This document shows positions 8,558 to 63,962 of a stretch of DNA of 64,000 nt, in pieces. The DNA lies in the NCBI RefSeq assembly GCF_900086705.1, contig NZ_LT575483.1, positions 1,693,534-1,757,533 of the forward strand. Reading direction: 5' to 3'. The position numbers and the translations under genes were made by a program. The notes beneath the pieces were generated by a model. The model was given only the letters and a program-made list of their open reading frames with translations. It did no database searches and was not told the DNA's origin. Position 1 is the stretch's first letter. Each line of letters opens with the position of its first letter. The stretch comes from Massilibacillus massiliensis. Its GTDB lineage: Bacteria; Bacillota; Negativicutes; FLKF01.

Positions 8558-9502
8558 CTATATCACCACATTGACGATACTTCTACCTACCATTGTGTCT
8601 TGAATGTTTTTTATCTCTTCTTTTTGCGCACAACTTTTCATTTTATCATCCTGCATCATATTTTCATTTACTAGCTCAGTGACATCCATGAATGAAGTCT
8701 TCACAGTTTCACCTTCTGAATGAAATTCTTCCATAAATTTATTAATAAGTTCTTCTAGGGACTTACTCTCTAATTGAATTCTCAAAATTTTATCTCTCGA
8801 CAATTCTCCTAGCGCTGTAATGAAACTTTCGCCCATTTGTCTGGATTTTTTTTTCGCATCGCTTAAAGTCAAATCTCCAAAATACTCATCAAAAGCTTTA
8901 GTAGCATTTTTCATTTGTTCAGTAGATGGATCAGTATCAAGATATTCCCCATGAGCGGATTGAGTAACCACATTTTTGATATAATTAACAATACTATTTG
9001 TACCTTCGGAATCCATCTTATCTAACTTTTCCAATAACTCTTTATAATAATTATTATCTGTGCCAAAAATTTTCGAATAGTTATTTAAACATATATTAAG
9101 TTCTTGTGCTGCTCCGCCAAAATTACGCCAAGCATCCTGATGCCCATTAAAGGGTTCCAGCATAACATGAATCGAGCTTTCTATATTTCCGCCAAAAAAT
9201 TCTTGGGCTGCAATGTCATCTAATACTTTACGGATTGATGGATCTTTATCGGCCTTATAGGCAACAAATTCATTCTGATCAATCGATTCATCAATGTTCT
9301 CGCTATCTCCAACAAATCGTTTCATCAACATATTTTCTTTTTCATTCATTAATTGCAACATATAAGCGGGATTTTCCTCCAAATCACTGCCTAAATTATT
9401 ATTTTGTACCTGATTTTGTCCCACTTTCTGGCTGTTTATCGAATTTACAAACAATATTTTGTTCACATTTACATCCGTATTCTGTCTCACAATTCTTTGC
9501 AT
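8558..9502 (-). CDS. Unknown 314-residue helical protein
   Basis: I do not recognise this protein. It is acidic and mostly helical, with a Gln/Asn-rich N-terminus, no signal peptide and no membrane segment. Regions such as YYKELLEKLDKMDSEGT and SLEELINKFMEEFHSEGE look amphipathic. An AGGAGG site sits eight bases before the ATG, so it is a real gene. It is followed within 25 bp by the small ORF interrupted by the IS, which may be its frameshifted C-terminus. The c-di-GMP protein upstream is separated by a terminator. Confidence 0.6.
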   Translation of the reverse strand: MQRIVRQNTDVNVNKILFVNSINSQKVGQNQVQNNNLGSDLEENPAYMLQLMNEKENMLMKRFVGDSENIDESIDQNEFVAYKADKDPSIRKVLDDIAAQEFFGGNIESSIHVMLEPFNGHQDAWRNFGGAAQELNICLNNYSKIFGTDNNYYKELLEKLDKMDSEGTNSIVNYIKNVVTQSAHGEYLDTDPSTEQMKNATKAFDEYFGDLTLSDAKKKSRQMGESFITALGELSRDKILRIQLESKSLEELINKFMEEFHSEGETVKTSFMDVTELVNENMMQDDKMKSCAQKEEIKNIQDTMVGRSIVNVVI

Positions 9503-9583
9503 TTCTTTTCCTCCTTGAACTGGAAATAGGTATCTATTTTTAGTATATCCCTGTAAATTTTATTTTTCAACAATAAATTACAA

Positions 9584-9613
9584 AAGAGGTAATCTTATAC
9601 ACGATTACCTCTT
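9584..9613 (-). terminator. Terminator of the GGDEF/EAL gene
   Basis: GAGGTAATC and GATTACCTC pair around an eight-base loop, with AAAA on the left serving as the U tail for the minus-strand gene that stops at 9652. Confidence 0.75.
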
Positions 9614-9651
9614 CATAATTTATTATTTTATAGACATATATGATCACCATT

Positions 9652-12450: not shown

Positions 12451-12635
12451 AAAACGCTCCAACTTTCACCATCATATGAGTTATTTAAACATATACTACA
12501 ATAAATTTTCATTATTTTTTATTATACTATAGGAGAAAAATTTTTTAAATTTTATATTTTAAATATCTTCATTTTTTATTTCTGTTTATATTTATTTTAT
12601 TTTAAATAATATTTCTCCTTTAATATAAATTATTG

Positions 12636-12665
12636 TTGACATGAATCCATTGGAAGTTTTATACT
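12636..12665 (+). promoter_or_regulatory. Sigma-A promoter of the cyd operon
   Basis: TTGACA at 12636-12641 is followed after 18 bases by TATACT at 12660-12665, about 45 bp before the cydA start. No repressor site is obvious. Confidence 0.75.
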
Positions 12666-12709
12666 TTATATAGATTGAGTGTATTTATATTCAGAGAGGA
12701 GAATTAAAG

Positions 12710-14074
12710 ATGGATGCTATTTTATTATCCAGATGGCAATTTGCAATCACAACAATTTATCACTTTTTATTTATTCCCTTGACTTTGGGACTGTCATTAT
12801 TTATAGCTATACTAGAAACCTTATATGTGAAAACAGGAAAAGAACAGTATAAACAGATGACAAAATTTTGGGGCAAGCTTTTTTTAGTCAACTTTGCAAT
12901 GGGTGTCGTTACAGGCATTGTCCAAGAATTTCACTTTGGTATGAACTGGTCGGAATATTCTAGATTCATGGGTGATATTTTTGGCGCCCCTCTTGCTTTA
13001 GAAGCTTTAACTGCATTTTTTATCGAATCTACTTTTTTAGGACTATGGATTTTCGGCTGGGATCGGCTTTCTAAAAAAATTCATTTGGCTTGTATCTGGC
13101 TTGTTGCTTTTGCCAGCAACCTTTCTGCCTTTTGGATTCTAGTTGCAAATTCATTTATGCAACATCCCGTTGGCTATACAATCCGTAATGGACGCGCAGA
13201 AATGCTTGATTTTACTGCACTTCTCACCAATCCATACGTAGCTGGCCAATTTTCTCATACTGTTTTATCCGGCATCGTAACTGCTGGTTTTTTCGTAGTT
13301 TCGATCAGTGCCTATCATTTACTCCGGAAAACGCACGTGGAATCATTTACGAGTACAATGAAAATCGGTTTAGTATGGACAATTATCGGCTTATTCGCTG
13401 TCATGGGCAGCGGTCATCTTCAAGCCCAATCACTCATCCATACACAACCAATGAAATTAGCTTCTATTGAGGCTTTGTGGAAAACTGAAAATCCCGCTCC
13501 GTTTACACTTTATACACAAATTGATCAAGAAAAACAAAAAAATTCTTCACAGATCGCGGTTCCCGGCATGCTCTCTTTTATGGTTTACAACCAATTCGAT
13601 GGAGAAATTAAAGGATTAACCGATCTACAAAAAACAAATGAACAACAATTTGGCCCTGGTGATTACATCCCTGATGTACCCGGTTTATTCTGGAGCTTCC
13701 GTATCATGGTTCTCGCCGGAGTAATCATGATTGGGATTGCAATCATCAATGCTTTCTACATTTTTACAAATAAATCTAGTGGGTATGCACTCGCATTAAA
13801 AGCATTGTTATTTGCACTGCCATTGCCATACATAGCAAACTCTACCGGCTGGTATGTTACGGAAGGCGGCAGACAGCCTTGGATCGTCGTAGGTCTGCAA
13901 AAAGTAAGTACCGCTATATCACCAAATATTACAACAACGGAAGTGTGGATTTCATTAATTGGCTTTACTCTGATTTATACAATCCTTGCTTACGTTGCGA
14001 TTTATGTATCCGTTAAATTCATCAAAAAAGGTCCTGAGACCCCATTACAATCGATGAAAGGTGGTCGGGCATAA
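12710..14074 (+). CDS. cydA: Cytochrome bd oxidase subunit I
   Basis: The 454-residue membrane protein carries the haem-ligand region RWQFAITTIYHFLFIPLTLG at the N-terminus, the second haem His region around QFSHTVLSG, and the GRQPW motif in TEGGRQPWIV. The periplasmic Q loop is short, as in Bacillus and other Firmicutes. With CydB it forms a quinol oxidase that reduces oxygen to water with high affinity; in an anaerobe this probably scavenges oxygen. An AGAGGAG site lies before the ATG. The stop overlaps the cydB start (TAATG). Confidence 0.97.
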   Translation: MDAILLSRWQFAITTIYHFLFIPLTLGLSLFIAILETLYVKTGKEQYKQMTKFWGKLFLVNFAMGVVTGIVQEFHFGMNWSEYSRFMGDIFGAPLALEALTAFFIESTFLGLWIFGWDRLSKKIHLACIWLVAFASNLSAFWILVANSFMQHPVGYTIRNGRAEMLDFTALLTNPYVAGQFSHTVLSGIVTAGFFVVSISAYHLLRKTHVESFTSTMKIGLVWTIIGLFAVMGSGHLQAQSLIHTQPMKLASIEALWKTENPAPFTLYTQIDQEKQKNSSQIAVPGMLSFMVYNQFDGEIKGLTDLQKTNEQQFGPGDYIPDVPGLFWSFRIMVLAGVIMIGIAIINAFYIFTNKSSGYALALKALLFALPLPYIANSTGWYVTEGGRQPWIVVGLQKVSTAISPNITTTEVWISLIGFTLIYTILAYVAIYVSVKFIKKGPETPLQSMKGGRA

Positions 14075-15081
14075 TGGATTTAAATATACTTTGGTTTATT
14101 CTAATTACCGTTCTTTTCATCGGTTTTTTCTTCTTAGAAGGATTCGACTACGGTGTAGGTGTACTCCTACCATTCTTAGGTAAAAACGATACCGAGCGTC
14201 GCATCATCATCAATACGATTGGGCCGGTTTGGGATGGCAATGAAGTCTGGATGATTACAGCCGGCGGTGCATTATTCGCAGCATTTCCTCACGTTTATGC
14301 CACAATGTTCAGCAGTTTTTATATCGCTTTATTTCTCATGCTGCTCGCATTGATCGCACGCGGCGTTACCTTTGAATTCCGCAGCAAAGATGAAAACCCG
14401 ATATGGCGCAGTACTTGGGATTGGACCCTTTGCATCAGCAGCGGAATCCCGGCACTTCTTTGGGGTGTTGCGGTAACCAACTTGATACAAGGAATTGCAA
14501 TCAACGAGAAGATGATTTATATTGGAACTTTCTTTGATTTATTAACACCGTATACAATTGTTGGCGGATTGGCTTTCTTATTTGTTTTTATTTTTCACGG
14601 TGCAATGTTCCTTGCTTTGAAAATTGAAAGCACGAGTATGATTGAAAGAGTCCGCGGTCTCGCACTTAAAAATGGGTTGATTGCAGCTGTCGTTTTTGTC
14701 ATCTGTATGATTTTAACCTATACAAATACAACTTTATTTTCCAGTGTCCTTGCTGCAAGCAGCTTAATCTTAGCAGCGATTACATTTGTAGCCGGCTACA
14801 TTTTTGCCTGGTTGAAAAAATATGGATTTGGCTTTATAATGAGTTCATTAGCAATTGTTTTAACTACGATTGCATTCTTCGCTGGATTATTCCCTCGCTT
14901 AATGGTTTCCAGTTTAAATCCAAATTGGAGTTTAACAATTTATAACGCTGCTTCTTCTACTTATACATTGCAAATTATGACCGTTGCAGCATTATGTTTG
15001 GTTCCTGTAGTCCTGATCTATCAAGGGTGGACTTACTGGGTATTCCGCAAGAGGGTTACGGCTAAAGACTTGGAGTATTAA
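14074..15081 (+). CDS. cydB: Cytochrome bd oxidase subunit II
   Basis: The 335-residue protein begins with a helix and then FFFLEGFDYGVGVLLPFLG, the conserved CydB opening, followed by GPVWDGNEVWMITAGGALFAAFP, which is diagnostic. About eight membrane helices follow. It binds CydA to form the oxidase. Its ATG overlaps the cydA stop, so translation is coupled. Confidence 0.97.
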   Translation: MDLNILWFILITVLFIGFFFLEGFDYGVGVLLPFLGKNDTERRIIINTIGPVWDGNEVWMITAGGALFAAFPHVYATMFSSFYIALFLMLLALIARGVTFEFRSKDENPIWRSTWDWTLCISSGIPALLWGVAVTNLIQGIAINEKMIYIGTFFDLLTPYTIVGGLAFLFVFIFHGAMFLALKIESTSMIERVRGLALKNGLIAAVVFVICMILTYTNTTLFSSVLAASSLILAAITFVAGYIFAWLKKYGFGFIMSSLAIVLTTIAFFAGLFPRLMVSSLNPNWSLTIYNAASSTYTLQIMTVAALCLVPVVLIYQGWTYWVFRKRVTAKDLEY

Positions 15082-15085
15082 TTGC

Positions 15086-16816
15086 ATGCTGGATAAACGC
15101 TTACTCACTGAAGCAAAAGTATATCGACATCGTTTTTTTAAAATTATTGGCTTAAGTATCATCAATGCAATTTGCATCGTGCTAACAGCTTATGAACTGA
15201 CCAAAATTATTCATGGTGTTTTTTTAGAAAAACTTCTTCTATCAGAAGTAGTATCGCCTCTCGCGATACTACTTTTCGTTATGTCTGTAAAATCAATTGT
15301 TTTATGGCTCACAGAAAATACTGCCCATACAATTGCCCAACAAATAAAACATGATTTACGTACACGCTTACTGCACCATTTGCTTGCCCTTGGTCCCATC
15401 ACCTTAGCCAGAGAACAAGTCGGCGAACTCATAAACCTGCTGACAGAAGGTATCGACCATTTAGATGACTATTTTACTAAATTTTTACCGCAAATCATCA
15501 GCACTGCAATTTTACCGCTTCTAATTCTTATGATCATTTTGCCAATTGACTATAAAACTGCTCTGATTCTCCTCTTTACCGCTCCACTCATTCCAATTTT
15601 CATGATCCTCATCGGTAAACGCGCCGACAAAGAAAATAAAAAACAATGGCAGACATTATCAAACATCAGTGCTTATTTTCTTGATGTGATTGAAGGATTA
15701 ACTACACTTAAAATATTAAATCAAAGCATTGCTCAAATAAAAAAAATTGAGACTTTGAGCAATGAATTTCGTGATATTACTTTAAAAGTGCTTCGTATTG
15801 CCTTTTTGTCTGCACTTATTTTAGAATTGGTTGCAACTTTGAGTGTAGCTTTAGTCGCAGTTACAGTTGGCTTACGTCTACTAAATGATAACATCACGTT
15901 CTCCACTGCTTTCTTTCTTTTATTAATTGCCCCAGAATTTTATCTTCCATTGCGTCAACTCGGTACAGCATTTCATGCATCTATGGCTGGAACCACTGCC
16001 GCAGATCACATCTATCAAGTCCTAAAAAATCCTGTGCACAAATCTACTGCAAAAGATCAGAAGGTCTCGTTTCATAAAACATCCAAGCTTGGCATTGCAT
16101 TTGAAAATGTTTCCTTCTCTTATCTAGCCAATCAACCTGTTCTAAATGAGATAAATTTTGCGATTGCTCCAGGAGAGCATGTTGCGATTGTTGGTGCCAG
16201 CGGTGCTGGTAAAACGACATTATTTCACCTGCTGTTAAATTTTATTCAGCCACAAAGCGGAAAAATTTTAATCAATCACACTGATTTATCCAGTATCGAA
16301 CAAACTGCGTGGTTAAAAAATATCGCTTACGTTCCACAAGCACCACATATCTTTGCACAAACAGTCGCTGAAAATATTGCAATGGCAAATACCGATGCAA
16401 CGTTTCAGGAGATTGAAGCAGCAGCAAAAGCTGCAATGGCACATGATTTCATTCAGCAGTTACCTCTAGGATATCAAACAATGCTTGGTGAGGGTGGTCA
16501 TCAATTAAGTGGTGGTCAAATGCGACGTATCGCAATTGCAAGAGCTTTTCTGCAAAATGCACCACTTATACTTTTAGACGAAGCAACATCTGGCTTAGAT
16601 GTCAATACAGAAGCCGATGTTACAACTGCACTCCATAAACTTACAAAAGAAAAAACTGTACTCATCATTGCTCATCGTTTACGTTCTGTTGAAACAGCAG
16701 ATAAAATTATTGTTATGCAACATGGACAGGTACTTGAAATTGGCAGCCATGATGAGCTCCTCCAGCAACGCGGCGCATACTTTACTCTATTAATGGCATA
16801 TCGAGGTGAACTATGA
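15086..16816 (+). CDS. cydD: CydD subunit of the heterodimeric ABC exporter CydDC
   Basis: The 576-residue half-transporter has an N-terminal six-helix membrane domain and a C-terminal ATPase: Walker A GASGAGKTT, signature LSGGQMRR, Walker B ILLDEATSGLD and the switch His in IAHRL. CydDC exports thiols such as cysteine and glutathione and is needed to assemble cytochrome bd. Placement right after cydB and length support CydD rather than a general exporter. A GGAG site near 15073 lies before the ATG. Confidence 0.93.
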   Translation: MLDKRLLTEAKVYRHRFFKIIGLSIINAICIVLTAYELTKIIHGVFLEKLLLSEVVSPLAILLFVMSVKSIVLWLTENTAHTIAQQIKHDLRTRLLHHLLALGPITLAREQVGELINLLTEGIDHLDDYFTKFLPQIISTAILPLLILMIILPIDYKTALILLFTAPLIPIFMILIGKRADKENKKQWQTLSNISAYFLDVIEGLTTLKILNQSIAQIKKIETLSNEFRDITLKVLRIAFLSALILELVATLSVALVAVTVGLRLLNDNITFSTAFFLLLIAPEFYLPLRQLGTAFHASMAGTTAADHIYQVLKNPVHKSTAKDQKVSFHKTSKLGIAFENVSFSYLANQPVLNEINFAIAPGEHVAIVGASGAGKTTLFHLLLNFIQPQSGKILINHTDLSSIEQTAWLKNIAYVPQAPHIFAQTVAENIAMANTDATFQEIEAAAKAAMAHDFIQQLPLGYQTMLGEGGHQLSGGQMRRIAIARAFLQNAPLILLDEATSGLDVNTEADVTTALHKLTKEKTVLIIAHRLRSVETADKIIVMQHGQVLEIGSHDELLQQRGAYFTLLMAYRGEL

Positions 16817-52437: not shown

Positions 52438-53076
52438 ATGAAGGCTTTTATTTTTGACATGGACGGCGTAATCATTGACAGCGAACCAATTAACACAGGG
52501 CTGGCGATCAAAACGGTTGCGCATTTTGGCAAGAGTATTACCAGTAATGAAATGGAAAAATACGCGGGATCAACGATGAAAGTTATTTTCTCTAGCATTA
52601 AAGAAAATAAGCAAATCAATGCTCCGTTAGAAGAAATCATCACTTATATGCAAGCGAGTATGCTTAGAAATTTAATAGAAACAGAAATTGAACCAATCAA
52701 AGGCATTCGACAACTTCTCTCCAATTTAAAAACAAACAATATCCCAACTGCGATTGCTTCTTCCTCACCGAAACATATAATTGAAGCAGTCGTTGATAAA
52801 TTTAAATTGGCTGATTATTTTGCGCATCTCGTCAGTGGAAATGAAGTAAAACACAGTAAGCCCGATCCAGAGATTTATCTTGTAACAGCAGAAAAACTAG
52901 GTGTCTTGCCTAACGAATGCGTTGTGCTTGAAGATTCAACAAATGGCGTAAATGCAGCAAAAAACGCCGGTATGACATGTATCGGCTTTAGAAATCTAAA
53001 TTCCGGCAATCAAGATATCTCCCGTGCAGACCTGATTGTAGATACAATCGGTAAAATCGACCTTAATAAAATTTAA
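52438..53076 (+). CDS. HAD-family phosphatase, beta-phosphoglucomutase type (copy 1)
   Basis: The 212-residue protein has FDMDGVIIDSEP (nucleophile and acid/base Asp), ASSSPKHIIEAV, a conserved Lys in KHSKPDPEIYL and EDSTNGVNAAKNAGM with the metal Asp. The cap is the small helical type. Substrates are sugar or polyol phosphates; the exact one is not evident. A GAGG site precedes the ATG. A paralogue follows 20 bp later. Confidence 0.9.
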   Translation: MKAFIFDMDGVIIDSEPINTGLAIKTVAHFGKSITSNEMEKYAGSTMKVIFSSIKENKQINAPLEEIITYMQASMLRNLIETEIEPIKGIRQLLSNLKTNNIPTAIASSSPKHIIEAVVDKFKLADYFAHLVSGNEVKHSKPDPEIYLVTAEKLGVLPNECVVLEDSTNGVNAAKNAGMTCIGFRNLNSGNQDISRADLIVDTIGKIDLNKI

Positions 53077-53096: not shown

Positions 53097-53738
53097 ATGA
53101 AGGCTTTCATATTTGATATGGATGGCGTAATTATTGATAGCGAACCAATTTATTTAGAAATCAACAAAAAAACTTTACACCATTTTAACATCACTGTCTC
53201 TACAGAAGATTTTAACCAATTTGTTGGCATGACAGATCATGGCGTATACGCAATCGTAAAAGAAAAATATCAGGTACCTCAAACAATAGACGAAATGCTG
53301 GCCTACCAAAGTGATCTCGTCTGGAGCACCTTCAAACATTTAGAAGCTGAACCGATTGATGGAATTCCAGAGTTGTTACAAACCTTAAAAGAACAGCATA
53401 TTGCCACTGCAGTAGCCTCTTCTTCACCAAAAAAAATTATCGAGATCATCTTGCGTCAACTTAAACTCGATAATTATTTCAACTTGATCGTCAGTGGACA
53501 AGAAGTCGCGCAGGGAAAACCTGCACCGGATATATTTTTAGAAACGGCCCAAAGGCTTCAGATTTCGCCAGCGGATTGCGTCGTACTTGAAGATTCTAAA
53601 AACGGATCTATTGCCGCAAAAAAAGCCGGTATGACTTGTATCGGATTTCAAAACCTTAGTTCTGGAAATCAAGACCTGCGTCAAGCAGATTTTATTGTAG
53701 ATTCGATTCCTGCAATTGATATTTTCAACTTAAAATAA
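53097..53738 (+). CDS. HAD-family phosphatase, beta-phosphoglucomutase type (copy 2)
   Basis: The 213-residue protein repeats the whole pattern of the upstream gene: FDMDGVIIDSEPI, ASSSPKKIIEIIL, GKPAPDIFLETA, EDSKNGSIAAKKAGMTCIGF. The first 16 residues and the C-terminal GMTCIGF..NLxSGNQD region are nearly identical in both, so this is a tandem duplication with a diverged cap, probably giving a different substrate. AGAGAGG precedes the ATG, and the two are co-transcribed. Confidence 0.9.
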   Translation: MKAFIFDMDGVIIDSEPIYLEINKKTLHHFNITVSTEDFNQFVGMTDHGVYAIVKEKYQVPQTIDEMLAYQSDLVWSTFKHLEAEPIDGIPELLQTLKEQHIATAVASSSPKKIIEIILRQLKLDNYFNLIVSGQEVAQGKPAPDIFLETAQRLQISPADCVVLEDSKNGSIAAKKAGMTCIGFQNLSSGNQDLRQADFIVDSIPAIDIFNLK

Positions 53739-53861: not shown

Positions 53862-54764
53862 ATGACTGAAGTAGAACAAATCAATTGTCGTAAAAAAGGA
53901 ATTGTCCTTGTATTACTTGGTGCAATCCTTTGGGGAGCCTCGGGTGTTGCCGCACAATATTTATTTCATTATAAACACTTAAGCCCAGAATGGCTGGTTG
54001 TCGTACGACTGCTTACCTCCGGGCTTTTATTATTGCTTTACGATTTTATAAAGAACCGTGCCAATCTCTTTTATATCTGGAAGATCAAGCACGATCGCTG
54101 TCAATTACTTTTATTTAGTATCTTTGGCATGCTAGGCGTACAATATACATATTTCGCCGCCATTCAACACGGTAATGCAGCCACAGCGACGATTTTACAG
54201 TATCTCATGCCAGTCATCGTCGCATGCTATTTAGCCCTCCGTTATAAAAAGCCGCCCAATAAATTAGAACAGATTTCGATCTTTTTGGCGATGCTCGGTA
54301 CATTCTTACTCGTAACCAAAGGCGATTTTCGTAACCTCGCGATCTCCCCACTCGCATTATTTTGGGGTATTGCCTCAGCTTTTTGCGCTGCTTTCTATAC
54401 ATTACAACCTAAATATCTGCTCAGCCATTGGCGTTCACCGCTTGTCATTGGTTGGGGAATGCTCACGGGCGGAATCATTATGAGTCCAATCAATCCGCCT
54501 TGGAAATTCAGCGGTATTTGGGATATCGACACCTTCTTCGTTATATGTTTCATCATCTTGTTTGGCACCGTTATCGCTTTCTACTCCTATTTAGAAAGTA
54601 TTAAATACATCCTGCCGACAGAAACTAGTACACTTGCATCCATGGAGCCACTTTCAGCTGTTCTTCTTTCCATCTATTGTCTTCATACACCTTTTGGGTG
54701 GATTGATTATATCGGTGGATTATCCATAATGGCAACCGTATTTCTCTTAGCTAAAAAACAATAA
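53862..54764 (+). CDS. EamA-family (DMT) transporter
   Basis: The 300-residue, ten-helix protein opens with KKGIVLVLLGAILWGASGVAAQYLF and SPEWLVVVRLLTSGLLLL and has the second-half ISPLALFWGIASAFCAAFYTLQPKYLL and LPTETSTLASMEPLSAVLLS. It is only distantly like the EamA gene at 50298. The substrate is unknown. It ends at a bidirectional terminator shared with the convergent Cof-type gene. Confidence 0.88.
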   Translation: MTEVEQINCRKKGIVLVLLGAILWGASGVAAQYLFHYKHLSPEWLVVVRLLTSGLLLLLYDFIKNRANLFYIWKIKHDRCQLLLFSIFGMLGVQYTYFAAIQHGNAATATILQYLMPVIVACYLALRYKKPPNKLEQISIFLAMLGTFLLVTKGDFRNLAISPLALFWGIASAFCAAFYTLQPKYLLSHWRSPLVIGWGMLTGGIIMSPINPPWKFSGIWDIDTFFVICFIILFGTVIAFYSYLESIKYILPTETSTLASMEPLSAVLLSIYCLHTPFGWIDYIGGLSIMATVFLLAKKQ

Positions 54765-54799
54765 AAAACTACTTGCTCAAACGAGCAAGTAGTTTTTTA
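54764..54799. terminator. Bidirectional terminator overlapping the Cof-type gene end
   Basis: AAAAAACTACTTGCTC pairs with GAGCAAGTAGTTTTTT around AAAC. The right arm encodes the last codons of the minus-strand gene and its stop lies in the loop. Confidence 0.9.
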
Positions 54800-55592
54800 T
54801 TGCATATGCGACACCATGTTCATCGTTTGTCTTTGTAACATAGCTTGCCGCTTCTTTTACTTCTGGCTCAGCATTTTCCATAGCAAAAGAGTATCCGGCC
54901 ATCCGCATCATGCTAATATCATTATGATGATCACCAAACACCGCAATCCGCTCGGGTTTAATCTGATACTTTTCAGCCAAGATTCTTACCGCCGCTCCCT
55001 TATTTACAGCTTTATCGGTAATATCCAGCCCATTTTTTTCAGATATCACAAACGTGTTTTTCCCACTCGGATTGTAACGTTGCTTTAGCTTAGCCACTTG
55101 CTGATCAGAAAGTTTCCAAATGAACATTTTTAACACTTGTTCCGTCGGCAAATCCTCAACTTTTTCCATCGTACAAATTGATATTTTAAAATCTTTCGGC
55201 ACTTTTTCATTATAATGATGAAAAATATTTACCCGCTCACTGTTTGCCGCACAAAACATATGATCACACACACTAGCCGTGAAATCATATCCGTTGTCGA
55301 AACAATAGCATATCATCTTTTCCACAAATCTCTTTTCCATATATTTATGATATAAAATTTCATTTGTCATCGGGCTTCGCACCAAAGCACCATTACAGGC
55401 AATAATCGGCTCTTCAATTCCAATCTGAGCCGATAAAGCTTTTACATACACATCATTTCGCCCTGTCGCCAAAACAATCTTTACACCATGTTTTTTTAGC
55501 TCTTGCAAGGCCTGCATATTTTCAAAGCTGATTTCTCCTTTAGAATTTAGCAGTGTACCATCAAGATCACATACACAACAATCTATTTTCAT
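54777..55592 (-). CDS. Cof-type HAD hydrolase
   Basis: The 271-residue protein has CDLDGTLLNSKGEI, LATGRNDVYVKAL, the large C2b cap, a Lys in KGAAVRILAEKY and FGDHHNDISMMRMAGYSFAM. It is the Cof/YidA type, which dephosphorylates sugar phosphates or FMN/PLP-like molecules. The last codons and stop are inside a terminator hairpin. AATGGAG precedes the ATG. Confidence 0.92.
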   Translation of the reverse strand: MKIDCCVCDLDGTLLNSKGEISFENMQALQELKKHGVKIVLATGRNDVYVKALSAQIGIEEPIIACNGALVRSPMTNEILYHKYMEKRFVEKMICYCFDNGYDFTASVCDHMFCAANSERVNIFHHYNEKVPKDFKISICTMEKVEDLPTEQVLKMFIWKLSDQQVAKLKQRYNPSGKNTFVISEKNGLDITDKAVNKGAAVRILAEKYQIKPERIAVFGDHHNDISMMRMAGYSFAMENAEPEVKEAASYVTKTNDEHGVAYAIKNYLLV

Positions 55593-55617: not shown

Positions 55618-58431
55618 TTATTTTACATCATCTTTTACATGAACTCTGCTTGGCAAACTGCTTAAAAAATAACAAATCTCGGCATCCGGCACCTCAAGCA
55701 ATAGCTTCATTCCTTCATTGCCTACAACCCTCTGCAAATACAAAAATTCATCCTGTCTTTCCTTTTGAATCTGCTGACTCCAATCCGGTGTTTGCAACGC
55801 TTGCTTCGAATGAACCCGATCAAACATACACGCCGCATGTAAATAAATACGAATCATTGCATCTTGTGTAATTGCCTCATCAAAAAAGTACTCCGCTATT
55901 TTTTCAACCAAGTTTTTACAACATACAGCAACTTTTTTCACAGACAAACTTTTGACAAACTTACTCAATTGCCCCGCTAACACTTCATAAACATCCGTTA
56001 TCACAGGTCTCTCTTCAATTGGTAATTCTCCCTCTAGGATGTCAAGCTGCAACAAATTCTCGACACGTTTCAATCCTTCTTTAGAGAATAATTCACTGAC
56101 ATGAACAAATGGGACGTGTTTCACTTTTGGCTCAATACTCCCAATGATCAGATGCAGTTTATCCCCTAAATTCCCCTGAATTTCCTCGACATCTTGCATC
56201 GCTCCAGCTGTAATAAAGTGCATTCCTTTCATACTCGGCACATGATTTCGTAGAATTTCCTTAATCTGCTCTGCTACCCCTTCACCGCTTGCACAGGTAA
56301 TCAGAATCGTCCCTTTTAGTTCCGCCACAGAATTGGTAGGATACCTTCTTTGCCGTAATGTCATCGTATACTCATCATACGCTTCATAAATATGCGCAAC
56401 GGCCTGCTCCAAAGTCTCATCCGTCGTCAATACACGACGACCAGCCTCCAGTACCAATGCAGTTGTTACATTTGGGATGATTTTAACCGGCACTTTAGTT
56501 TCTTTCACCAGCATATTTTCCATTGTAACTAAAAAGCCCATATCTACAAGTACAATCACACCACTGCCTTGATTACGCTTGATAATCACCTCTTGCAGTT
56601 CTTCTACCGTTTGTGCGTTGCTTCTATTGAGCGGGATATCATATGCTTTCACATGATCGGTTCCTAATAAATTATTTGCAACTTCCGCCATGCTTTGCGC
56701 GGTTCCCCGTCCATGCGCGGCAATAATCATTCCAATTCTCGGCTTTAGCGGTTCTTCACAGCCATGAATTAAAAACATCGCAATAAACCCAAGCTCATCC
56801 GGCGATATATCTGTCTGCAGTTTGGCAGATAACAAATCGATATGATCCAGTACTACCTGATATGCCGCTTCATGCTCTGCTTTAATCATTTTTAAATTCG
56901 GATTATAAATAATCCGCCCAGAAATCACGCGTTCTCTAAACTGTTGCAAGTGTAATGCCAGCGCAACCAAGGTTCTTCGACCATATTTTCTTTTCAACTT
57001 ACTCGCGGCATCATTTAATAAAACATTGGCCGTTTCCCAAATATTCTGCTCTATGATGCTGACCGGCATATCGGCTGCATCAGCCTTTGCCAAAGATTGC
57101 GCAGCGGAGCCAAAATATTTTTCTAAATCTTTGCCGACTTTTTCTTCGATCTCTTCATCTGATATTTCCATTTTACGATAACTATTAATTTTTTTGTCCA
57201 CATACTCGTATAAATCCCGATGCAAATCATAGTCGTTAACTGCTCCGTTGATCATCATTTCTCCATCGGGCTCAATCAAAATACCTTCTCTGAACAGCCG
57301 ATTGATTGCATCATCAAGCACGGTTTGATTTCTTACCATAGAAAAAATCCGCTGTGGAATCGCATCAACATCCACGGTTAATTTATCATGCGCAGCCGCT
57401 AAACTCGATAAATAGCTTTTTGCACAACAAAGCTGCAGATCATTACGGAGTTCCCCAATATTTGCCGGACAATTATAGTGCGTAAAAGTCTCCAAGGCCT
57501 GTCCGGAAATAAAGATCGGTACCCCTAGGCGAATCGCTTCCTGACGAACAAAATGAACAATTAAACGAATCCTCTCGTTAATCGGTCGTTCATTAATTCT
57601 CGGCAACGTAATCTGCACAGGAATCCTCCGCCGAAATGTGAGTAAAAGAGAACTCGATATATCCTCAGAGGTAGCACCAATAATCATCAACTGTGCCTTC
57701 CGCTCTCCCCGCGTTTCTCCCAATCGGCGATAAACGCCTTTATCTACCAACATAAAAAGTAGTTCTTGTCCAGTCGAAGGCAAGCGATGAATTTCATCTA
57801 AAAATAAAATGCCACCTTTTGCGCGATCTACCACGCCTTCATGATCTTCATTCGCTCCTGTAAAAGCACCTTTTACATAACCAAACAATTGTGCCAGCAA
57901 TAGCTGCGCATTATCTGCATAATCGGCACAACCAAACGTAATAAACGGAACCGACTCTTTCGTCGTCCACATTTCTGTTGCATACTTCCACATCGCTTCA
58001 GCCAGTAAATTCTTTCCGACTCCACTTTCACCGCAGATTAACGTATGCAAACCATTTGGCGGATATACAATCGCTGCTTTCGCCAATTCTATCTGTGCTT
58101 TTATACTGCCACCACTGCCAACAATACCTGAAAATGCAGTTGGTTGAACCGTATGCAAAGTTTTCTTTAAATTTTGAATTTTTAAATTGGGCTCTTTTTC
58201 AACTTTTTTATGCATATACGTACGCTCACGATTGCCAATCGCATAGTATAAAACCGGCCTAGTACCAGTTTTTTCGATATACCCCAATTTATATAATTTA
58301 TTCAAATCGGCCGATGCATCGCTGCGATGGATATTCAACTCCAATGCCACTGTAGCCGCATTTACACCTTTTCTAGAAGCTTCGTCCGTACAGGACTCTA
58401 CATATTCCATTACTCTATCAATTCTAGCCAT
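55618..58431 (-). CDS. LevR-type sigma-54 activator of the PTS operon
   Basis: The 937-residue protein has an N-terminal winged helix (residues 1-65), a sigma-54 AAA domain with GESGVGKN at 134, GAFTGA at 188 and LFLDEIHR, a PRD, an EIIA-Man-like domain (MIIAAHGRGTAQSMAEV), an EIIB-Gat-like domain and a second PRD near the end (RIYLHAACMFDRV). This is the classical LevR order. Phosphorylation of PRD His residues by the PTS should set activity. It lies downstream of the mannose-type PTS genes in the same direction and probably activates their -24/-12 promoter beyond the right edge. Confidence 0.93.
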   Translation of the reverse strand: MARIDRVMEYVESCTDEASRKGVNAATVALELNIHRSDASADLNKLYKLGYIEKTGTRPVLYYAIGNRERTYMHKKVEKEPNLKIQNLKKTLHTVQPTAFSGIVGSGGSIKAQIELAKAAIVYPPNGLHTLICGESGVGKNLLAEAMWKYATEMWTTKESVPFITFGCADYADNAQLLLAQLFGYVKGAFTGANEDHEGVVDRAKGGILFLDEIHRLPSTGQELLFMLVDKGVYRRLGETRGERKAQLMIIGATSEDISSSLLLTFRRRIPVQITLPRINERPINERIRLIVHFVRQEAIRLGVPIFISGQALETFTHYNCPANIGELRNDLQLCCAKSYLSSLAAAHDKLTVDVDAIPQRIFSMVRNQTVLDDAINRLFREGILIEPDGEMMINGAVNDYDLHRDLYEYVDKKINSYRKMEISDEEIEEKVGKDLEKYFGSAAQSLAKADAADMPVSIIEQNIWETANVLLNDAASKLKRKYGRRTLVALALHLQQFRERVISGRIIYNPNLKMIKAEHEAAYQVVLDHIDLLSAKLQTDISPDELGFIAMFLIHGCEEPLKPRIGMIIAAHGRGTAQSMAEVANNLLGTDHVKAYDIPLNRSNAQTVEELQEVIIKRNQGSGVIVLVDMGFLVTMENMLVKETKVPVKIIPNVTTALVLEAGRRVLTTDETLEQAVAHIYEAYDEYTMTLRQRRYPTNSVAELKGTILITCASGEGVAEQIKEILRNHVPSMKGMHFITAGAMQDVEEIQGNLGDKLHLIIGSIEPKVKHVPFVHVSELFSKEGLKRVENLLQLDILEGELPIEERPVITDVYEVLAGQLSKFVKSLSVKKVAVCCKNLVEKIAEYFFDEAITQDAMIRIYLHAACMFDRVHSKQALQTPDWSQQIQKERQDEFLYLQRVVGNEGMKLLLEVPDAEICYFLSSLPSRVHVKDDVK

Positions 58432-58524
58432 TTCCTGTACTCCTTATTTATCCTTCGAAGTAAACCGCTATTTCTATCATAATTAATTCCTGCAATAAAA
58501 GCTAAATCCTTCTGCAACTCCATG

Positions 58525-59583
58525 CTAACGGCAATTCTTTGAACGTAAATTTATTCCATACGCTTTCGATATTTCCTCTAACTCTTGCACAATTTCGCTT
58601 GATAAACCAATTCCTTCTTTTCGCAGCCTTTTCTCTAGGTTTTGCTCACGTTCACCAGGAAGGTAAATTTCACTGACACCATCTATTTTATCTGTATTTT
58701 TTATCATCTGACAAAAACTTTCGATACGATCATAATATGAATCTAACGATATAAATGCATCTGCTTTTACAATCATAAAAAAATGACCAACGTCCGCTTT
58801 AGTCTCCCCATTCTTGTAAGCCGCAACCTCAGTGCCAAATTGTGCATTCGTTATGATACCACTTAGCAAATCCACTGCCATAGACAGAGCATACCCTTTT
58901 GGACCCGCCATAGGAAGGATCATGCCCATAAGTGCTTCATTAGGATCTGTTGTTATATTTCCCTTTTGATCCATAGCCCAACCTTCCGGTATTTCAATTC
59001 CCTTTTTCGCAGCAGAAATAATTTTACCTCGCGCAACGACACTCGTCGCCATATCTATGATGATTGGACACTGCTCTTTTCTCGGAAAACCAAAAGCAAT
59101 TGGATTCGTTCCCAGGCAAGCCTTCTTTCCACCCCAAGGTGCCAGTGCTGCTAAAGCATTTGTCAAGCCGATGCTGATATAATTCTTCTTTGCCGCAATC
59201 TCACAATAAAATCCAGCCATGCCAAAATGATTGCTATTATTTACGCCCACTGCACAAATGCCAAATTCATCCGCGATCTGCAATGCCTCATCTAAAGCTT
59301 TACACATAACCGCTGCACCAAGACCATTATCACCATCTATGGTCAGCAACGCAGGCCATGGTTTTTGTACTTTAATCTTCGGGGTTGGATTGATCGTATT
59401 ATTTTTAATGCGCATAAGATATCTAGATAAACGGCTTATCCCGTGTGTAGAAATTCCCCAAAGTTCGGCTTTTAATAAATTATCCGCAACCTTATCGCTA
59501 TCATCCAATGGCACTCCAACCTTGCAAAAACATTGTATGATAAACTTTTTTAATTCTTCCTCAGAAAACAGTATATGATTCAT
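58525..59583 (-). CDS. Ldh-family (malate/L-lactate/ureidoglycolate type) NAD(P)H-dependent oxidoreductase
   Basis: The 352-residue protein has AELWGISTHGISRLSRY, VGVNNSNHFGMAGFYCEIAAKKNYISIGLTNALAALAPWGGKKACLGTNPIAFGFPR, DMATSVVARGKI and GPKGYALSMAVDLLSG, diagnostic for the LDH2/MDHG family (YiaK, AllD, ComC). These reduce 2-keto acids such as diketogulonate. In this operon it probably acts on a keto-sugar acid. It follows EIID across an intercistronic hairpin and has an AGGAAGG site. Confidence 0.92.
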   Translation of the reverse strand: MNHILFSEEELKKFIIQCFCKVGVPLDDSDKVADNLLKAELWGISTHGISRLSRYLMRIKNNTINPTPKIKVQKPWPALLTIDGDNGLGAAVMCKALDEALQIADEFGICAVGVNNSNHFGMAGFYCEIAAKKNYISIGLTNALAALAPWGGKKACLGTNPIAFGFPRKEQCPIIIDMATSVVARGKIISAAKKGIEIPEGWAMDQKGNITTDPNEALMGMILPMAGPKGYALSMAVDLLSGIITNAQFGTEVAAYKNGETKADVGHFFMIVKADAFISLDSYYDRIESFCQMIKNTDKIDGVSEIYLPGEREQNLEKRLRKEGIGLSSEIVQELEEISKAYGINLRSKNCR

Positions 59584-59628
59584 AAAGTAACCGCCTTCCT
59601 AAAATTTACAAACTTTGTTTCTTATACA

Positions 59629-59670
59629 ATGAGCTAGTAAAAATCAAAATCATTGATTTTACTAGCTCAT
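59629..59670 (-). promoter_or_regulatory. Intercistronic hairpin between EIID and the dehydrogenase gene
   Basis: ATGAGCTAGTAAAA and TTTTACTAGCTCAT pair with the inner ATCA/TGAT extending the stem. No U run follows on the minus strand, so it may protect upstream PTS mRNA or partly end transcription. Confidence 0.6.
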
Positions 59671-59682
59671 ATCATCTGTATT

Positions 59683-60513
59683 TTATTTAATAAGCCCCAA
59701 TGCACCACCGGCTAAAGCGAAAACAAATAATGCTAAAAGCACGGTAACGACGCGGTATCCTCGCATAATCGCCTGCCAGCTCACAACGGTGATTGCAAGC
59801 GGCAATATTTTCGGTACGATTTTATCCATCATATCCTTAATTACAATTTCTTTTCCACCTAAAACCGGTGCCCAGGCAAAATCCACTGTAATGAATTTAC
59901 ATACCATAATCCCGAGAACAAACAAGCCCATAATTGAGAAGAAAGTTGTTAACTTTTTAAACAATCCACCTTCTAAAATTGCAGTAACAGCAGTCGTCCC
60001 CAATTGATAACCCTTTTTGATACTAAGTCTTGTAATCGTGTAATCATAACCAAGCATTGCACAAGCAAAGACAATCGGCCCCATAATACTGCCTGACGCT
60101 GCCCAGCCTAAACAGATACCGAGAATGACTGGTTTGTACAACGCACCAGAAATTGTATCACCAATCCCTGCAAGTGGTCCCATAAGTGACGATTTCAAAT
60201 CGATGATCGTCGATTCATCAATATCGCCGCCCTTTGCCTTTTGTTCTTCCAAAGCAATAACAATTCCATGAATCACCGCACCCCAGCGCGGTTCTGTATT
60301 AAAAAATATCATATGCCGTTTTAAACCAGCTACAACCTGATCGTGATCATTTGGATATAATTTTTTCAGAAGCGGCCCCATCATAGATGCGAACCCGCCC
60401 GCCTGCATTCTTTGATAATTATAGGCTAAATGGCTCATAATCCACCAACGGAAAATTGCAAATTCAAGATCCAGTTTAGATAATCCGATTTCAGCTGTTT
60501 TGTTATTTGCCAT
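59683..60513 (-). CDS. Mannose-family PTS EIID component
   Basis: The 276-residue membrane protein has LEFAIFRWWIMSHLAYNYQRMQAGGFASMMGPLLKKLY, MIFFNTEPRWGAVIHGIVIALEEQKAKG and SSLMGPLAGIGDTISGAL, standard for EIID of the mannose family. With EIIC it forms the sugar channel. Its ATG overlaps the EIIC stop (TAATG), with the ribosome site inside EIIC. Confidence 0.96.
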   Translation of the reverse strand: MANNKTAEIGLSKLDLEFAIFRWWIMSHLAYNYQRMQAGGFASMMGPLLKKLYPNDHDQVVAGLKRHMIFFNTEPRWGAVIHGIVIALEEQKAKGGDIDESTIIDLKSSLMGPLAGIGDTISGALYKPVILGICLGWAASGSIMGPIVFACAMLGYDYTITRLSIKKGYQLGTTAVTAILEGGLFKKLTTFFSIMGLFVLGIMVCKFITVDFAWAPVLGGKEIVIKDMMDKIVPKILPLAITVVSWQAIMRGYRVVTVLLALFVFALAGGALGLIK

Positions 60514-61283
60514 TATATTTCATCCTCCTCATCATGCATTTGGTTACCAGCATTTGCAGGTTCTGGCTGCAAGGAAATATACACATATCCCATAGCAGCA
60601 CCTAAAAATGCAGCAAACAATAAATTGTTCATTCCCGTAAATGCGCTAATTGCAAATCCTACACCGAAAAATACCAATAAGTCCTTACGTGCCATATATT
60701 TTAATAACATTGCAATACCAACTGCCGGTAATACCTTACCTACGGTATTAAAACCTGCAACCCCCCAAGCAGGAATCGCTGCAAGAAGACCTTCAATCAC
60801 TGGCGGACCATAATAAGCAGCCAAAAATGCCGGAATCCCTCTTACTAAAATAACAACAAATTGCGAAGGAACCGCTTGCAGAATCATCAGTTTCTTTATA
60901 TCGCCTTTTTCTGCACATTTATCCTGCAAAGAAGGAATCGCCGAGTTTGCCGACATAAATAAAATCCATGCATAATTACCAATAACACCGATCGACACTG
61001 CCATTACAACAGCCTGTTCCGTACTAATATTACTTTGAATTGCAACGGCTGTCCCCAAAAGTCCAGCTGAATACAAATCTGACGGATTCGCTCCACCTGT
61101 GCTGTTCCAACCTAAAAATGCCACATTAATCGCCGCACCAATGATCATACCCTCTATCGGTTGTCCATAAATAACGCCGACCCAAAAACCTGCCATAATC
61201 GGCTCGCGAATCAGCCACCAACCCAGTGGATTCGATGAACTTTGCAGCCAGCCTAAAATCCCGATCATAATTGCTTCAATCAT
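60513..61283 (-). CDS. Mannose-family PTS EIIC component
   Basis: The 257-residue membrane protein has LIREPIMAGFWVGVIYGQPIEGMIIGAAINVAFLGWNSTGGANPSDLYSAGLLGTAVAI and the mannose-family EIIC helices. It ends in an acidic MHDEEDEI that holds the EIID ribosome site. The ATG at 61283 follows GGAGGG; six extra upstream codons have no site. Substrate likely a sugar acid from its neighbours. Confidence 0.95.
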   Translation of the reverse strand: MIEAIMIGILGWLQSSSNPLGWWLIREPIMAGFWVGVIYGQPIEGMIIGAAINVAFLGWNSTGGANPSDLYSAGLLGTAVAIQSNISTEQAVVMAVSIGVIGNYAWILFMSANSAIPSLQDKCAEKGDIKKLMILQAVPSQFVVILVRGIPAFLAAYYGPPVIEGLLAAIPAWGVAGFNTVGKVLPAVGIAMLLKYMARKDLLVFFGVGFAISAFTGMNNLLFAAFLGAAMGYVYISLQPEPANAGNQMHDEEDEI

Positions 61284-61370
61284 GAAATATTCCCTCCTCA
61301 AATCATTACAAAATCTAGCTTTACGAATGCCTTATTTTATTTGCTAGGAATCACTACACTATCTCTACGA

Positions 61371-61853
61371 TTAGAAACTTATATTAACTGATTTATAATC
61401 CATTTTCTTATCTTCTGGCGTCGCTTGGAAAAATACGTTTACTTTTTCTACCATCTTCTTAATCAATTCATTATCTTCTTCATTCAATGTCATATTCAAA
61501 TACACCGCTTTGCGTCCAGGACCTGCACCTAACCCGCCAATCTGCAAATCTTCAATCGGAAATCCTTTTTCCCAAGTTGCGTAAGTGGTAGGAATATCTT
61601 TAAATAAAATAATTGCTTTCCCTTCACCCAATTGATTTTTATTCCACGCTGCAATAAAACGATCAATTCCCACAATACTGCATTTTACATCTGAAGGCAT
61701 TGCCATCCGATAAATATTACTCATCACAGGGTCCTTTGATAAATTATCATTTACGATAATAATCTTCGTTGCTTGCGTATCCTTCAACCATCTTGCCACG
61801 ACTTGTCCATGAATTAATCGAAAATCAACTCTAATTAAAGAAATTTTAGCCAT
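61371..61853 (-). CDS. Mannose-family PTS EIIB component
   Basis: The 160-residue cytosolic protein has His15 in RVDFRLIHGQVV, the phosphorylation site, and KGFPIEDLQIGGLGAGPGRKAVYLNMTL. It takes phosphate from EIIA and passes it to the incoming sugar. It is a separate protein, not fused to EIIA. Confidence 0.96.
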   Translation of the reverse strand: MAKISLIRVDFRLIHGQVVARWLKDTQATKIIIVNDNLSKDPVMSNIYRMAMPSDVKCSIVGIDRFIAAWNKNQLGEGKAIILFKDIPTTYATWEKGFPIEDLQIGGLGAGPGRKAVYLNMTLNEEDNELIKKMVEKVNVFFQATPEDKKMDYKSVNISF

Positions 61854-61874
61854 CTACACTCACTCTTTCTACTT

Positions 61875-62312
61875 TTATATTGAATCGTCTTCTACTTTTT
61901 GAATTTCAAGCTCTGTTAAAATATTTTTACAACCTGATTTTCCAGATTGTATCACAGCCTCTGCCAACTCTTCACCACGCATACTAAAGCGTAAAGAAAG
62001 TGCCTCAATCAGCATGCATAAGTTTACCCCGGCAACGGCAGCAATTTTTCTCTGACTTGCGACGGCCGCCGAAACATTGGACGGTGTGCCGCCAAACAAA
62101 TCACTCATGATCAATGACCCTTCAGGCATCGTATCTAAAATTGTCTGCACATCGATAATTAAATCCGCTGGATCCATTCCCGGTAACAAAGACAAAGCTT
62201 TCACATTTTCCTGGGCACCGACGATCATCTCAGCACTCTTTATAAGTTCCTCTCCAAAAATCCCGTGTGTTATTACAAGAATTCCTGGAATCGCATGTTG
62301 ATATTCTGACAT
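61875..62312 (-). CDS. Mannose-family PTS EIIA component
   Basis: The 145-residue protein has the phosphorylatable His16 in LVITHGIFGEELI and MSDLFGGTPSNVSAA, as in the EIIA-Man fold. The start is the ATG at 62312 with GGAGGAA upstream. It lies 20 bp before EIIB. A C-terminal Cys-containing segment (SGKSGCKNIL) is uncommon. Confidence 0.94.
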   Translation of the reverse strand: MSEYQHAIPGILVITHGIFGEELIKSAEMIVGAQENVKALSLLPGMDPADLIIDVQTILDTMPEGSLIMSDLFGGTPSNVSAAVASQRKIAAVAGVNLCMLIEALSLRFSMRGEELAEAVIQSGKSGCKNILTELEIQKVEDDSI

Positions 62313-62340
62313 ACAAAATTCCTCCATTTAGACGTTTTGC

Positions 62341-62988
62341 TTATTGACGAGCTTTGGCAATCGCTGCTAAAAATTCTTGCGTTGCCTGCGTTACCTTGCC
62401 ATAGTCTCCATCTTTTTTATGTGCCTTCGCAATATAACTTCCCACACCAACTGCAACGCATCCAGCTTCTAGCCATTCACCAACATTTTCAGGGGTTACA
62501 CCGCCGAAAGGTACAAGTGCTGCAGTTGGCATTGGCGCACGTAAGGTTTTTACATATTTAGGACCATAAAAATCTGCTGGGAATAACTTAATGATATCTG
62601 CTCCAGCTGCCATAGAATCTGAGATCTCTGTCGGAGACATCGCACCCGATACAGTAACCGCCTGATAACGATTCGCTATACGTATCATATCTTCATTAAA
62701 GCTTGAGCTTACCAACATTTCTGCACCGGCTAAAAGAGCTGCACTCGCGTTTTCAGCATCTAAAACCGTACCAACACCAATCACAATTCCTTGACTGCTA
62801 TATTTACTTGTCAATCTTTTAATAATTTGCAATACATCTGGAACTGCAAAAGGAATCTCTAATGCCTTTGCTCCACCGGCAATCGCCGCTTCAGCAATTT
62901 TATAAGCATCTTCGGCATCATCAGACCGAATAATTGCAATCATTCCAGTTTCATAGATTGATTTTAAATTCTCTAATTTTTTCCACAT
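62341..62988 (-). CDS. eda: KDPG/KHG-type aldolase with altered active site
   Basis: The 215-residue protein is an Eda-family TIM barrel: AIIRSDDAEDAYKIAEAAIAGGAKALEIPF, GIVIGVGTVLDAENASAALLAGAEMLVSSSF and the Schiff-base Lys in DIIKLFPADFYGPKYV. The conserved EVTLRT is replaced by EIPFAV, keeping the Glu but not the Arg that contacts substrate in E. coli KDPG aldolase, so the substrate may differ. The start is the ATG at 62988 nine bases after AAGGGG; an earlier ATG overlapping the upstream stop has no site. Confidence 0.88.
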   Translation of the reverse strand: MWKKLENLKSIYETGMIAIIRSDDAEDAYKIAEAAIAGGAKALEIPFAVPDVLQIIKRLTSKYSSQGIVIGVGTVLDAENASAALLAGAEMLVSSSFNEDMIRIANRYQAVTVSGAMSPTEISDSMAAGADIIKLFPADFYGPKYVKTLRAPMPTAALVPFGGVTPENVGEWLEAGCVAVGVGSYIAKAHKKDGDYGKVTQATQEFLAAIAKARQ

Positions 62989-63005
62989 AGTCTTTATCCC
63001 CTTTA

Positions 63006-63962
63006 TCATTTTATCACAGAATATTTAGCCTTCTGCCCCGACAAAACCCTTGCAACTTCTTCTGCTGCCATTACACCAGCTCCAACAATCGCTTCTCTGG
63101 TATATGCACCAGCATGCGCTGTTAAAATAACATTTTCTAATGCCAACAACGGAGAATCTCCCAATGGTTCACGCGGATGTACATCTAGTGCCGCACCGGC
63201 AATCACGCCCGATTGCAGCGCCTCATATAAATCTGCCTCCACAACAAGCTCCCCACGCGCCGTATTGATGAGAAATGCAGTCTTTTTCATGCCCTGTAAT
63301 CGTTCTTTATTCACCATGCCGATGGTCTCTTCGATTGCCGGTGCATGCAAAGAAACAAAATCTGCTTCTTTAAAAAGTTCATCTAAGGAAACATACGTTA
63401 CACCATACTGTTCAATAAAGTCCTGACGAGGATATACATCATACGCTAAAATTTTCATTCCAAACGCATACGCCCTTTTCGCAACTTCACCGCCGATATT
63501 TCCCATTCCGACGATTCCAAGCACTTTGCCTCCAAGCTCTACGCCTGTATGACGATACCAGCCTTTATCTCTGATTTTGCGATCCATTGCCGGAATATTT
63601 CTTGCGATAGACAACATCATGCCCACAGCCAAATCCGCAACAGATTTACTATTCGCCCCCGGTGTAATCGTAACATCAATGCCATGCTCTTTTGCCGCAT
63701 CAACATCGATTGTATTATACCCAACACCCTGTTTTGCAACAATTTTAAGCGTAGGTGCGCCAGCAGCCAAAACTGCGGCAGTTACCTTATCACTTCCCGC
63801 GATCATTCCATCCGCACCTTGTATCATATCGACCAACTCAGCTTCTGTTAATGTGCGGTCATAAGGATTCAAAATCAATTCATAGCCTTGCGCTTCTAGA
63901 ATTTTCATTGCTTCTGCGGACCTTGATCTCGCTCTCGATCCAACGAGAACTTTTTTCTTCAT
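63006..63962 (-). CDS. D-isomer 2-hydroxyacid dehydrogenase (SerA-like)
   Basis: The 318-residue protein has LGIVGMGNIGGEVAKRA (NAD binding), FLINTARGELV with the catalytic Arg, DVHPREPL with the Glu and TAHAGAYT with the His. It is the phosphoglycerate/2-ketogluconate reductase type, lacking the SerA regulatory ACT domain. In this operon it probably oxidises or reduces a C2 hydroxyl of a sugar acid. AAGGGG precedes the ATG. Confidence 0.93.
   Translation of the reverse strand: MKKKVLVGSRARSRSAEAMKILEAQGYELILNPYDRTLTEAELVDMIQGADGMIAGSDKVTAAVLAAGAPTLKIVAKQGVGYNTIDVDAAKEHGIDVTITPGANSKSVADLAVGMMLSIARNIPAMDRKIRDKGWYRHTGVELGGKVLGIVGMGNIGGEVAKRAYAFGMKILAYDVYPRQDFIEQYGVTYVSLDELFKEADFVSLHAPAIEETIGMVNKERLQGMKKTAFLINTARGELVVEADLYEALQSGVIAGAALDVHPREPLGDSPLLALENVILTAHAGAYTREAIVGAGVMAAEEVARVLSGQKAKYSVIK

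Follow-up and report, generated by a model that had tools for sequence, protein, structure and literature searches.

The kgu operon of Pseudomonas encodes a 2-ketogluconate permease, a kinase and the 2-keto-6-phosphogluconate reductase KguD, and acts together with Edd and Eda. In Salmonella, the dga operon for D-glucosaminate combines a LevR-type sigma-54 activator, a mannose-family phosphotransferase system (PTS; EIIABCD) and a 2-keto-3-deoxy-6-phosphogluconate (KDPG)-type aldolase with a DgaE-type ammonia-lyase. A SerA-type and an LDH2-type dehydrogenase together make up the sulfolactate racemase SlcC/ComC (PMC12421959). Here we analyzed a stretch of 64,000 nucleotides from Massilibacillus massiliensis (contig NZ_LT575483.1, positions 1,693,534 to 1,757,533; hereafter the window, whose coordinates are used throughout). 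Its last 9 kb are filled by a single minus-strand operon that resembles each of these systems in part, and which we tentatively read as a sigma-54/LevR-controlled PTS version of 2-ketogluconate-type (2-keto-aldonate) utilisation.

The operon runs from a SerA-type dehydrogenase through a KDPG-type aldolase, EIIA, EIIB, EIIC, EIID, an LDH2-family dehydrogenase and a LevR activator to a Cof-type HAD phosphatase (Table 1). A first-pass annotation made from the sequence alone had named the mannose-type EIIABCD, the aldolase, the SerA-type and LDH2-type dehydrogenases and LevR in one direction; gene calls and family searches confirmed all eight on the minus strand, far above the cut-offs of their families. 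The ninth gene, for the phosphatase, starts 25 bases past LevR, outside the interval delimited there. The SerA and aldolase genes share 4 bases and those of EIIC and EIID 1 base, every gap is below 100 bases, and a pattern scan found no terminator-like site on the minus strand from LDH2 to the HAD gene end. In alignments, SerA carries the catalytic Arg-Glu-His and the Schiff-base lysine of the aldolase sits in IIKLFPAD. The closest solved chain to SerA in a PDB comparison is 1wwk, a phosphoglycerate dehydrogenase, and the Asp that ends its second beta strand (YDVYPR) predicts use of NAD. The LDH2 protein is the sole strong member of its family in the window genome.

As the first-pass annotation had judged, this is not a glucosaminate operon. 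It shares the activator type, the mannose-family EIIABCD and the KDPG-type aldolase with dga, but has two dehydrogenases instead of the DgaE-type ammonia-lyase (TIGR01437). No such enzyme is encoded in the operon or past the window edge, and one scored over the cut-off in only one of nine carrier genomes, not that of the window. Moreover, the best NCBIfam match of the regulator is DagR, at 496.8 bits, far under the cut-off of 1400. As in SlcC/ComC, a SerA-type and an LDH2-type dehydrogenase, presumably of opposite stereospecificity, are encoded together; unlike that system, the operon has a PTS and an aldolase and no sulfolactate lyase, and its LDH2, which is dispensable (see below), best matches L-sulfolactate dehydrogenase at 322.7 bits, below the cut-off of 500. 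The nearest pathway in chemistry is Pseudomonas kgu with Edd/Eda. Common to both are phosphorylation at C6, which is putative here, a predicted C2 dehydrogenase of the D-2-hydroxyacid family and, further along, a KDPG aldolase. They differ in that a mannose-family PTS stands where kgu has permease and kinase, in that the operon has an LDH2 and sigma-54/LevR control but no Edd, and in that its SerA is nearest to phosphoglycerate dehydrogenases and bears an NAD signature.

The same operon was found in ten other Negativicutes loci (11 with the window), with Pelosinus, Propionispora, Propionispira and Pectinatus among the carriers. Family- and order-level genome searches returned the window's own genome alone; eight further genomes (L057–L064) came from a class-wide search and larger fetches, and Propionispira arboris (L111) and Pectinatus haikarae (L112) from a scan of species genomes. 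Identity across carriers is 63–76% for SerA and 73–82% for EIIC, and the HAD phosphatase adjoins LevR in 5 of the 10 other loci, with 49–55% identity. LDH2 is relocated to the operon front in L061, a contig end cuts the operon inside LDH2 in L064, and an antisense open reading frame masked the EIIA slot in L063. A common order of eight unrelated genes across genera is not chance. None of the 11 loci encodes a dehydratase or a kinase within the operon, in line with the missing dehydratase remarked on in the first pass, and none contains a secondary permease. Both dehydrogenases occur in 9 of the 11 loci, LDH2 being absent from the operons of Propionispira and Pectinatus; LDH2 is therefore an accessory, dispensable part. 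In L111 the place of LDH2 is taken by a fragment of a group II intron (14587-14763), which matches Rfam RF02001 at 37 bits (gathering score 32). Pelosinus, Propionispira and Pectinatus are cultured carriers, which makes the operon testable.

The sequence past the window edge was read as locus L009 (window coordinate = L009 + 54466). A perfect -24/-12 site, TGGCACGGTTTTTGC, lies upstream of SerA at L009 9580-9566 (window-equivalent 64046-64032) and is preceded by GTAGTGTAGTG repeats. TGGCAY-N5-TTGC stands ahead of the first gene in 11 of 11 operon loci, in the others mostly as TGTAGTGGCAYG-N4-TTGCA with a CTACACTAC/GTAGTGTAG repeat upstream. Three matches were counted in 19.9 kb, where shuffling predicts 0.14. 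The presence of both this promoter motif and a LevR-type activator supports control of the operon by sigma-54/LevR. The first-pass annotation had proposed to look past position 64000 for such a promoter, and for a dehydratase or a kinase: the promoter is there, and the genes of L009 add neither enzyme to the operon, so that its suggestion of a dehydratase beyond the edge did not hold. Further upstream come a terminator-like stem and then an unrelated minus-strand unit (L009 10195-16175; permease, LrgA/LrgB-like proteins, glycyl-radical enzyme with activase and GntR regulator, named by eye). An Rfam search at the operon gave no riboswitch or other element at gathering score. The two remaining -24/-12 matches are intragenic, on the minus strand at 58823-58837 (LDH2 gene) and 56946-56960 (LevR gene).

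We propose that the mannose-family PTS imports a 2-keto-aldonate such as 2-ketogluconate and phosphorylates it at C6, in keeping with the phosphorylation of a sugar acid on entry suggested in the first pass. The NAD-linked SerA would then act as KguD does in Pseudomonas, interconverting 2-keto-6-phosphogluconate and 6-phosphogluconate, and together with the PTS would stand in for permease, kinase and reductase. LDH2, with opposite stereospecificity, may admit the C2 epimer (mannonate-type) through the common 2-keto intermediate, and this two-dehydrogenase epimerase would be used by some lineages only. 6-Phosphogluconate could leave through 6-phosphogluconate dehydrogenase or, where present, through an Edd-like enzyme encoded elsewhere; the aldolase would take KDPG, which the latter supplies or which, in genomes lacking that enzyme, derives from 2-keto-3-deoxygluconate brought in by the operon PTS. 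Enterococci are said, in an early report, to ferment 2-ketogluconate through 2-keto-6-phosphogluconate. Our literature searches, which covered few subscription papers, returned neither a PTS described for 2-ketogluconate or 3-deoxyaldonates nor a publication on this gene set. If correct, this reading would add a new substrate class to the mannose-family PTS.

This reading is favoured by the company of SerA relatives, which were collected by a phylum-wide search with the SerA alignment, read for gene context and placed in a tree of 55 SerA rows. In that tree, a paralogue encoded by the window genome (L026) is sister to the window SerA clade (99% SH-aLRT); it lies next to a GntP permease, an FGGY kinase nearest to gluconokinase and a KDPG aldolase, with a divergent IlvD/Edd-like gene (L089) alongside. 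Relatives at 41–49% identity (L184, L203, L195, L197, L191, L201, L178 and L026) adjoin gluconokinase-like kinases, Edd-like dehydratases, 6-phosphogluconate dehydrogenase (Gnd) or LarA-family proteins. Because of these neighbours, the window SerA branch probably acts in aldonate metabolism.

Further support comes from L172 (5503-15767), a locus of another Bacillota lineage in a genome (G339) of one contig and 99% completeness. Its order is LevR, EIIA, EIIB, EIIC, EIID, EIIA, EIIB, LDH2, SerA, KDPG aldolase and decarboxylating Gnd. Like the window operon it combines LevR, mannose PTS, both dehydrogenases and aldolase with its own -24/-12 site and no dehydratase; unlike it, L172 has a duplicate EIIA/EIIB pair, the added Gnd and distantly related parts (29–45% identity for PTS, LevR, SerA and LDH2). 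This Gnd is over both NCBIfam cut-offs and is the only one of its genome. L204 (11-6240) contains a galactitol-type PTS, SerA, LDH2 and a dihydrodipicolinate synthase (DHDPS)-type aldolase. The LDH2 proteins of L172 and L204 are no nearer to that of the window than to those of unrelated loci (35–37% identity), which points to separate recruitment. The link between SerA and a mannose PTS was made more than once: the nine-gene operon is kept across several anaerobe genera, and one other lineage or more has reassembled it out of distantly related parts. Three loci of the L172 SerA branch (L180, L188 and L189) encode LevR, mannose PTS and SerA but neither aldolase nor dehydratase, consistent with a central metabolite as the product of SerA. 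Finally, 6-phosphogluconate dehydrogenase (PF00393) was found in 9 of 9 genomes tested, and Propionispira and Pectinatus keep the operon without LDH2, as the 2-ketogluconate-type reading would allow.

Several points weigh against it. It does not tightly account for the aldolase that directly follows SerA where the genome lacks Edd (Propionispora group, Pectinatus and the L172 genome), and PTS import of 2-keto-3-deoxygluconate is an added assumption. In the unrelated loci L023, L024, L170, L199 and L200, SerA is directly followed by a pyruvate-type aldolase without a dehydratase, an arrangement that better fits the 3-deoxyaldonate route considered below. The predicted NAD signature of SerA does not favour reduction. 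A hexonate substrate for the SerA-linked LarA proteins is a guess: the closest solved chains to two of them are malate and lactate racemases, not the solved D-gluconate 2-epimerase, and these neighbours were accordingly not retained as proof of a gluconate 2-epimerase. Nickel-dependent LarA enzymes do epimerise D-gluconate and D-mannonate (PMC7583248, PMC11770544). LarA proteins next to SerA relatives may correspond to the LDH2/SerA pair.

The supply of KDPG was evaluated by typing PF00920 (IlvD/Edd) matches with NCBIfam for some of the carrier genomes. Two Propionispora-group genomes (G027 and G045) and Pectinatus have one match each, the IlvD equivalog, and no 6-phosphogluconate dehydratase, so that Edd cannot feed the aldolase in these three carriers; PF00920 is absent from the L172 genome. 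Three members are encoded in the window genome: IlvD, the IlvD/Edd-like L089, whose score with the Edd model is 325 bits (cut-off 708), and one more. Dehydratases of the enolase superfamily (PF13378) and of the altronate/galactarate family (PF04295) occur unevenly, elsewhere in some genomes (UxuA was not searched for); G027 has no PF13378 and G045 no PF04295 protein over the cut-off.

These data can also be accommodated, though with lower probability, if the PTS imports a 3-deoxyaldonate (metasaccharinate type), of which SerA and LDH2 each oxidise one C2 epimer to KDPG or a shorter homologue for cleavage to pyruvate and glyceraldehyde 3-phosphate. With C3 already deoxygenated, a dehydratase would be superfluous, and a single chemical step would join SerA to the aldolase. 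SerA and aldolase are adjacent in all 11 operon loci and in L023, L026, L166, L170, L172, L199 and L200, many of them without a dehydratase, and SerA accompanies a DHDPS-type aldolase and a PTS in L024, L027 and L204. The three carriers without Edd, the L172 genome without any IlvD/Edd protein, the optional LDH2 and an NAD signature suited to oxidation, the Asp of which is present in all readable SerA rows but one (L198), are all consistent with such a route. However, it leaves the Gnd of L172 without a role and the gluconokinase and Edd-like context of SerA relatives unexplained, our literature searches returned no such pathway, and 3-deoxyaldonates are uncommon substrates. Both proposals fit most of the facts and the data do not decide between them; we prefer the 2-ketogluconate-type one. 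If KDPG were formed by direct oxidation, pyruvate would be reached without the dehydratase that the Entner-Doudoroff scheme depends on, and utilisation of 3-deoxyaldonates would represent a dehydratase-free relative of that scheme, with a logic recurring in Bacillota operons with other transporters and aldolases.

The complete route of the first-pass annotation appears improbable. In it, LDH2 oxidation and SerA reduction would epimerise an aldonate-6-phosphate to 6-phosphogluconate, an Edd-like enzyme encoded elsewhere would dehydrate the product and the operon aldolase would cut KDPG. The IlvD/Edd-like protein beside the sister SerA locus of the window genome (L089/L026), the recurrence of LDH2 and SerA pairs (L172, L204 and L069-L071) and the published SlcC/ComC racemase (PMC12421959) argue for it. 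Against it stand the Propionispora-group and Pectinatus genomes without Edd, the score of L089 far from that of Edd, and the otherwise intact operons of Pectinatus and Propionispira. Since these two lineages lack LDH2, epimerisation by two dehydrogenases is not obligatory; it may still be an optional extension, given that LDH2 and SerA co-occur in L172 and L204 and that SlcC/ComC provides a precedent. Cleavage by the aldolase requires a 2-keto-3-deoxy acid, and epimerisation by itself yields none.

Even less probable is that the PTS imports 2-keto-3-deoxygluconate alone, the aldolase cutting KDPG and the dehydrogenases merely re-oxidising NADH by converting pyruvate to D- and L-lactate. The SerA-like and LDH2 families do include D- and L-lactate dehydrogenases (distant NCBIfam matches) and no dehydratase would be needed, but SerA is the first gene and among the best-conserved enzymes (63–76%), its relatives lie in sugar-acid rather than lactate loci, and its best PDB match is not a lactate dehydrogenase. 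Cleavage of 2-keto-6-phosphogluconate itself by the aldolase to hydroxypyruvate and glyceraldehyde 3-phosphate, with SerA reducing hydroxypyruvate to D-glycerate, would explain the missing dehydratase and the kinship of SerA with hydroxypyruvate reductases, and transketolase genes lie near L024 and L027; this route is hardly credible, as KDPG aldolases use, to our knowledge, pyruvate and not hydroxypyruvate as donor and no glycerate kinase was recognised in the operons.

Table 1. Features of the operon in window coordinates, with the search result on which each assignment rests.
Feature	Coordinates	Strand	Evidence
SerA-type D-2-hydroxyacid dehydrogenase, first gene	63006..63962	-	Pfam 2-Hacid_dh_C 2.6e-62
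KDPG/KHG-type aldolase	62341..63009	-	Pfam 9.6e-37; NCBIfam PRK06552 215 bits, below cut-off 238
PTS mannose-family EIIA	61875..62327	-	Pfam EIIA-man 1.1e-21
PTS mannose-family EIIB	61371..61853	-	Pfam PTSIIB_sorb 1.7e-43
PTS mannose-family EIIC	60513..61301	-	Pfam EII-Sor 1.4e-59; true start may be ATG six codons in
PTS mannose-family EIID	59683..60513	-	Pfam EIID-AGA 1.2e-78
LDH2-family dehydrogenase (YbiC/ComC/AllD type)	58525..59583	-	Pfam Ldh_2 8.1e-120
LevR-type sigma-54 activator	55618..58431	-	Pfam Sigma54_activat 4.7e-37, PRD x2, EIIA-man
Cof-type HAD-IIB phosphatase, ninth gene	54777..55592	-	TIGR00099 221.7 bits, cut-off 137
Intrinsic-terminator-like stem, 20 pairs then T run, at HAD gene end	54759..54802	-	pattern scan

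The window aldolase (62341-63009) is among the more diverged operon parts (58–61% identity, against 71–76% for SerA in the same comparison). Beside its phosphate-binding loop it reads PFGGV where the orthologues read PTGGV, a Phe for Thr at a position that presumably bears on specificity.

Other loci pair SerA with an aldolase in the absence of a recognised dehydratase. Three of them belong to the window genome. L023 (G000:C6:2180000-2199000, 4152-14227) is a second PTS locus with a -24/-12 site upstream, in which a divergent LevR is followed by SerA, KDPG aldolase, EIIB, EIIC, EIID, two mannitol-dehydrogenase-family proteins, EIIA and a ribulose-phosphate-epimerase-like protein. L024 (G000:C6:2205000-2224000, 7626-15179) and L027 (8006-12394) both encode SerA and a DHDPS-family aldolase, the former with a mannose-type and the latter with a galactitol-type PTS. 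SerA occurs with a KDPG aldolase in L170, L199, L200, L194 and L198, most of which also encode ABC transporters and FGGY kinases; an aldehyde dehydrogenase or an aldehyde:ferredoxin oxidoreductase is present in some, and these five are possible non-PTS counterparts of the operon. Beyond the HAD phosphatase gene, two adjacent HAD-like proteins of 212 and 213 residues (52438-53076 and 53097-53738) are identical over their first 18 residues, apparently as a result of tandem duplication.

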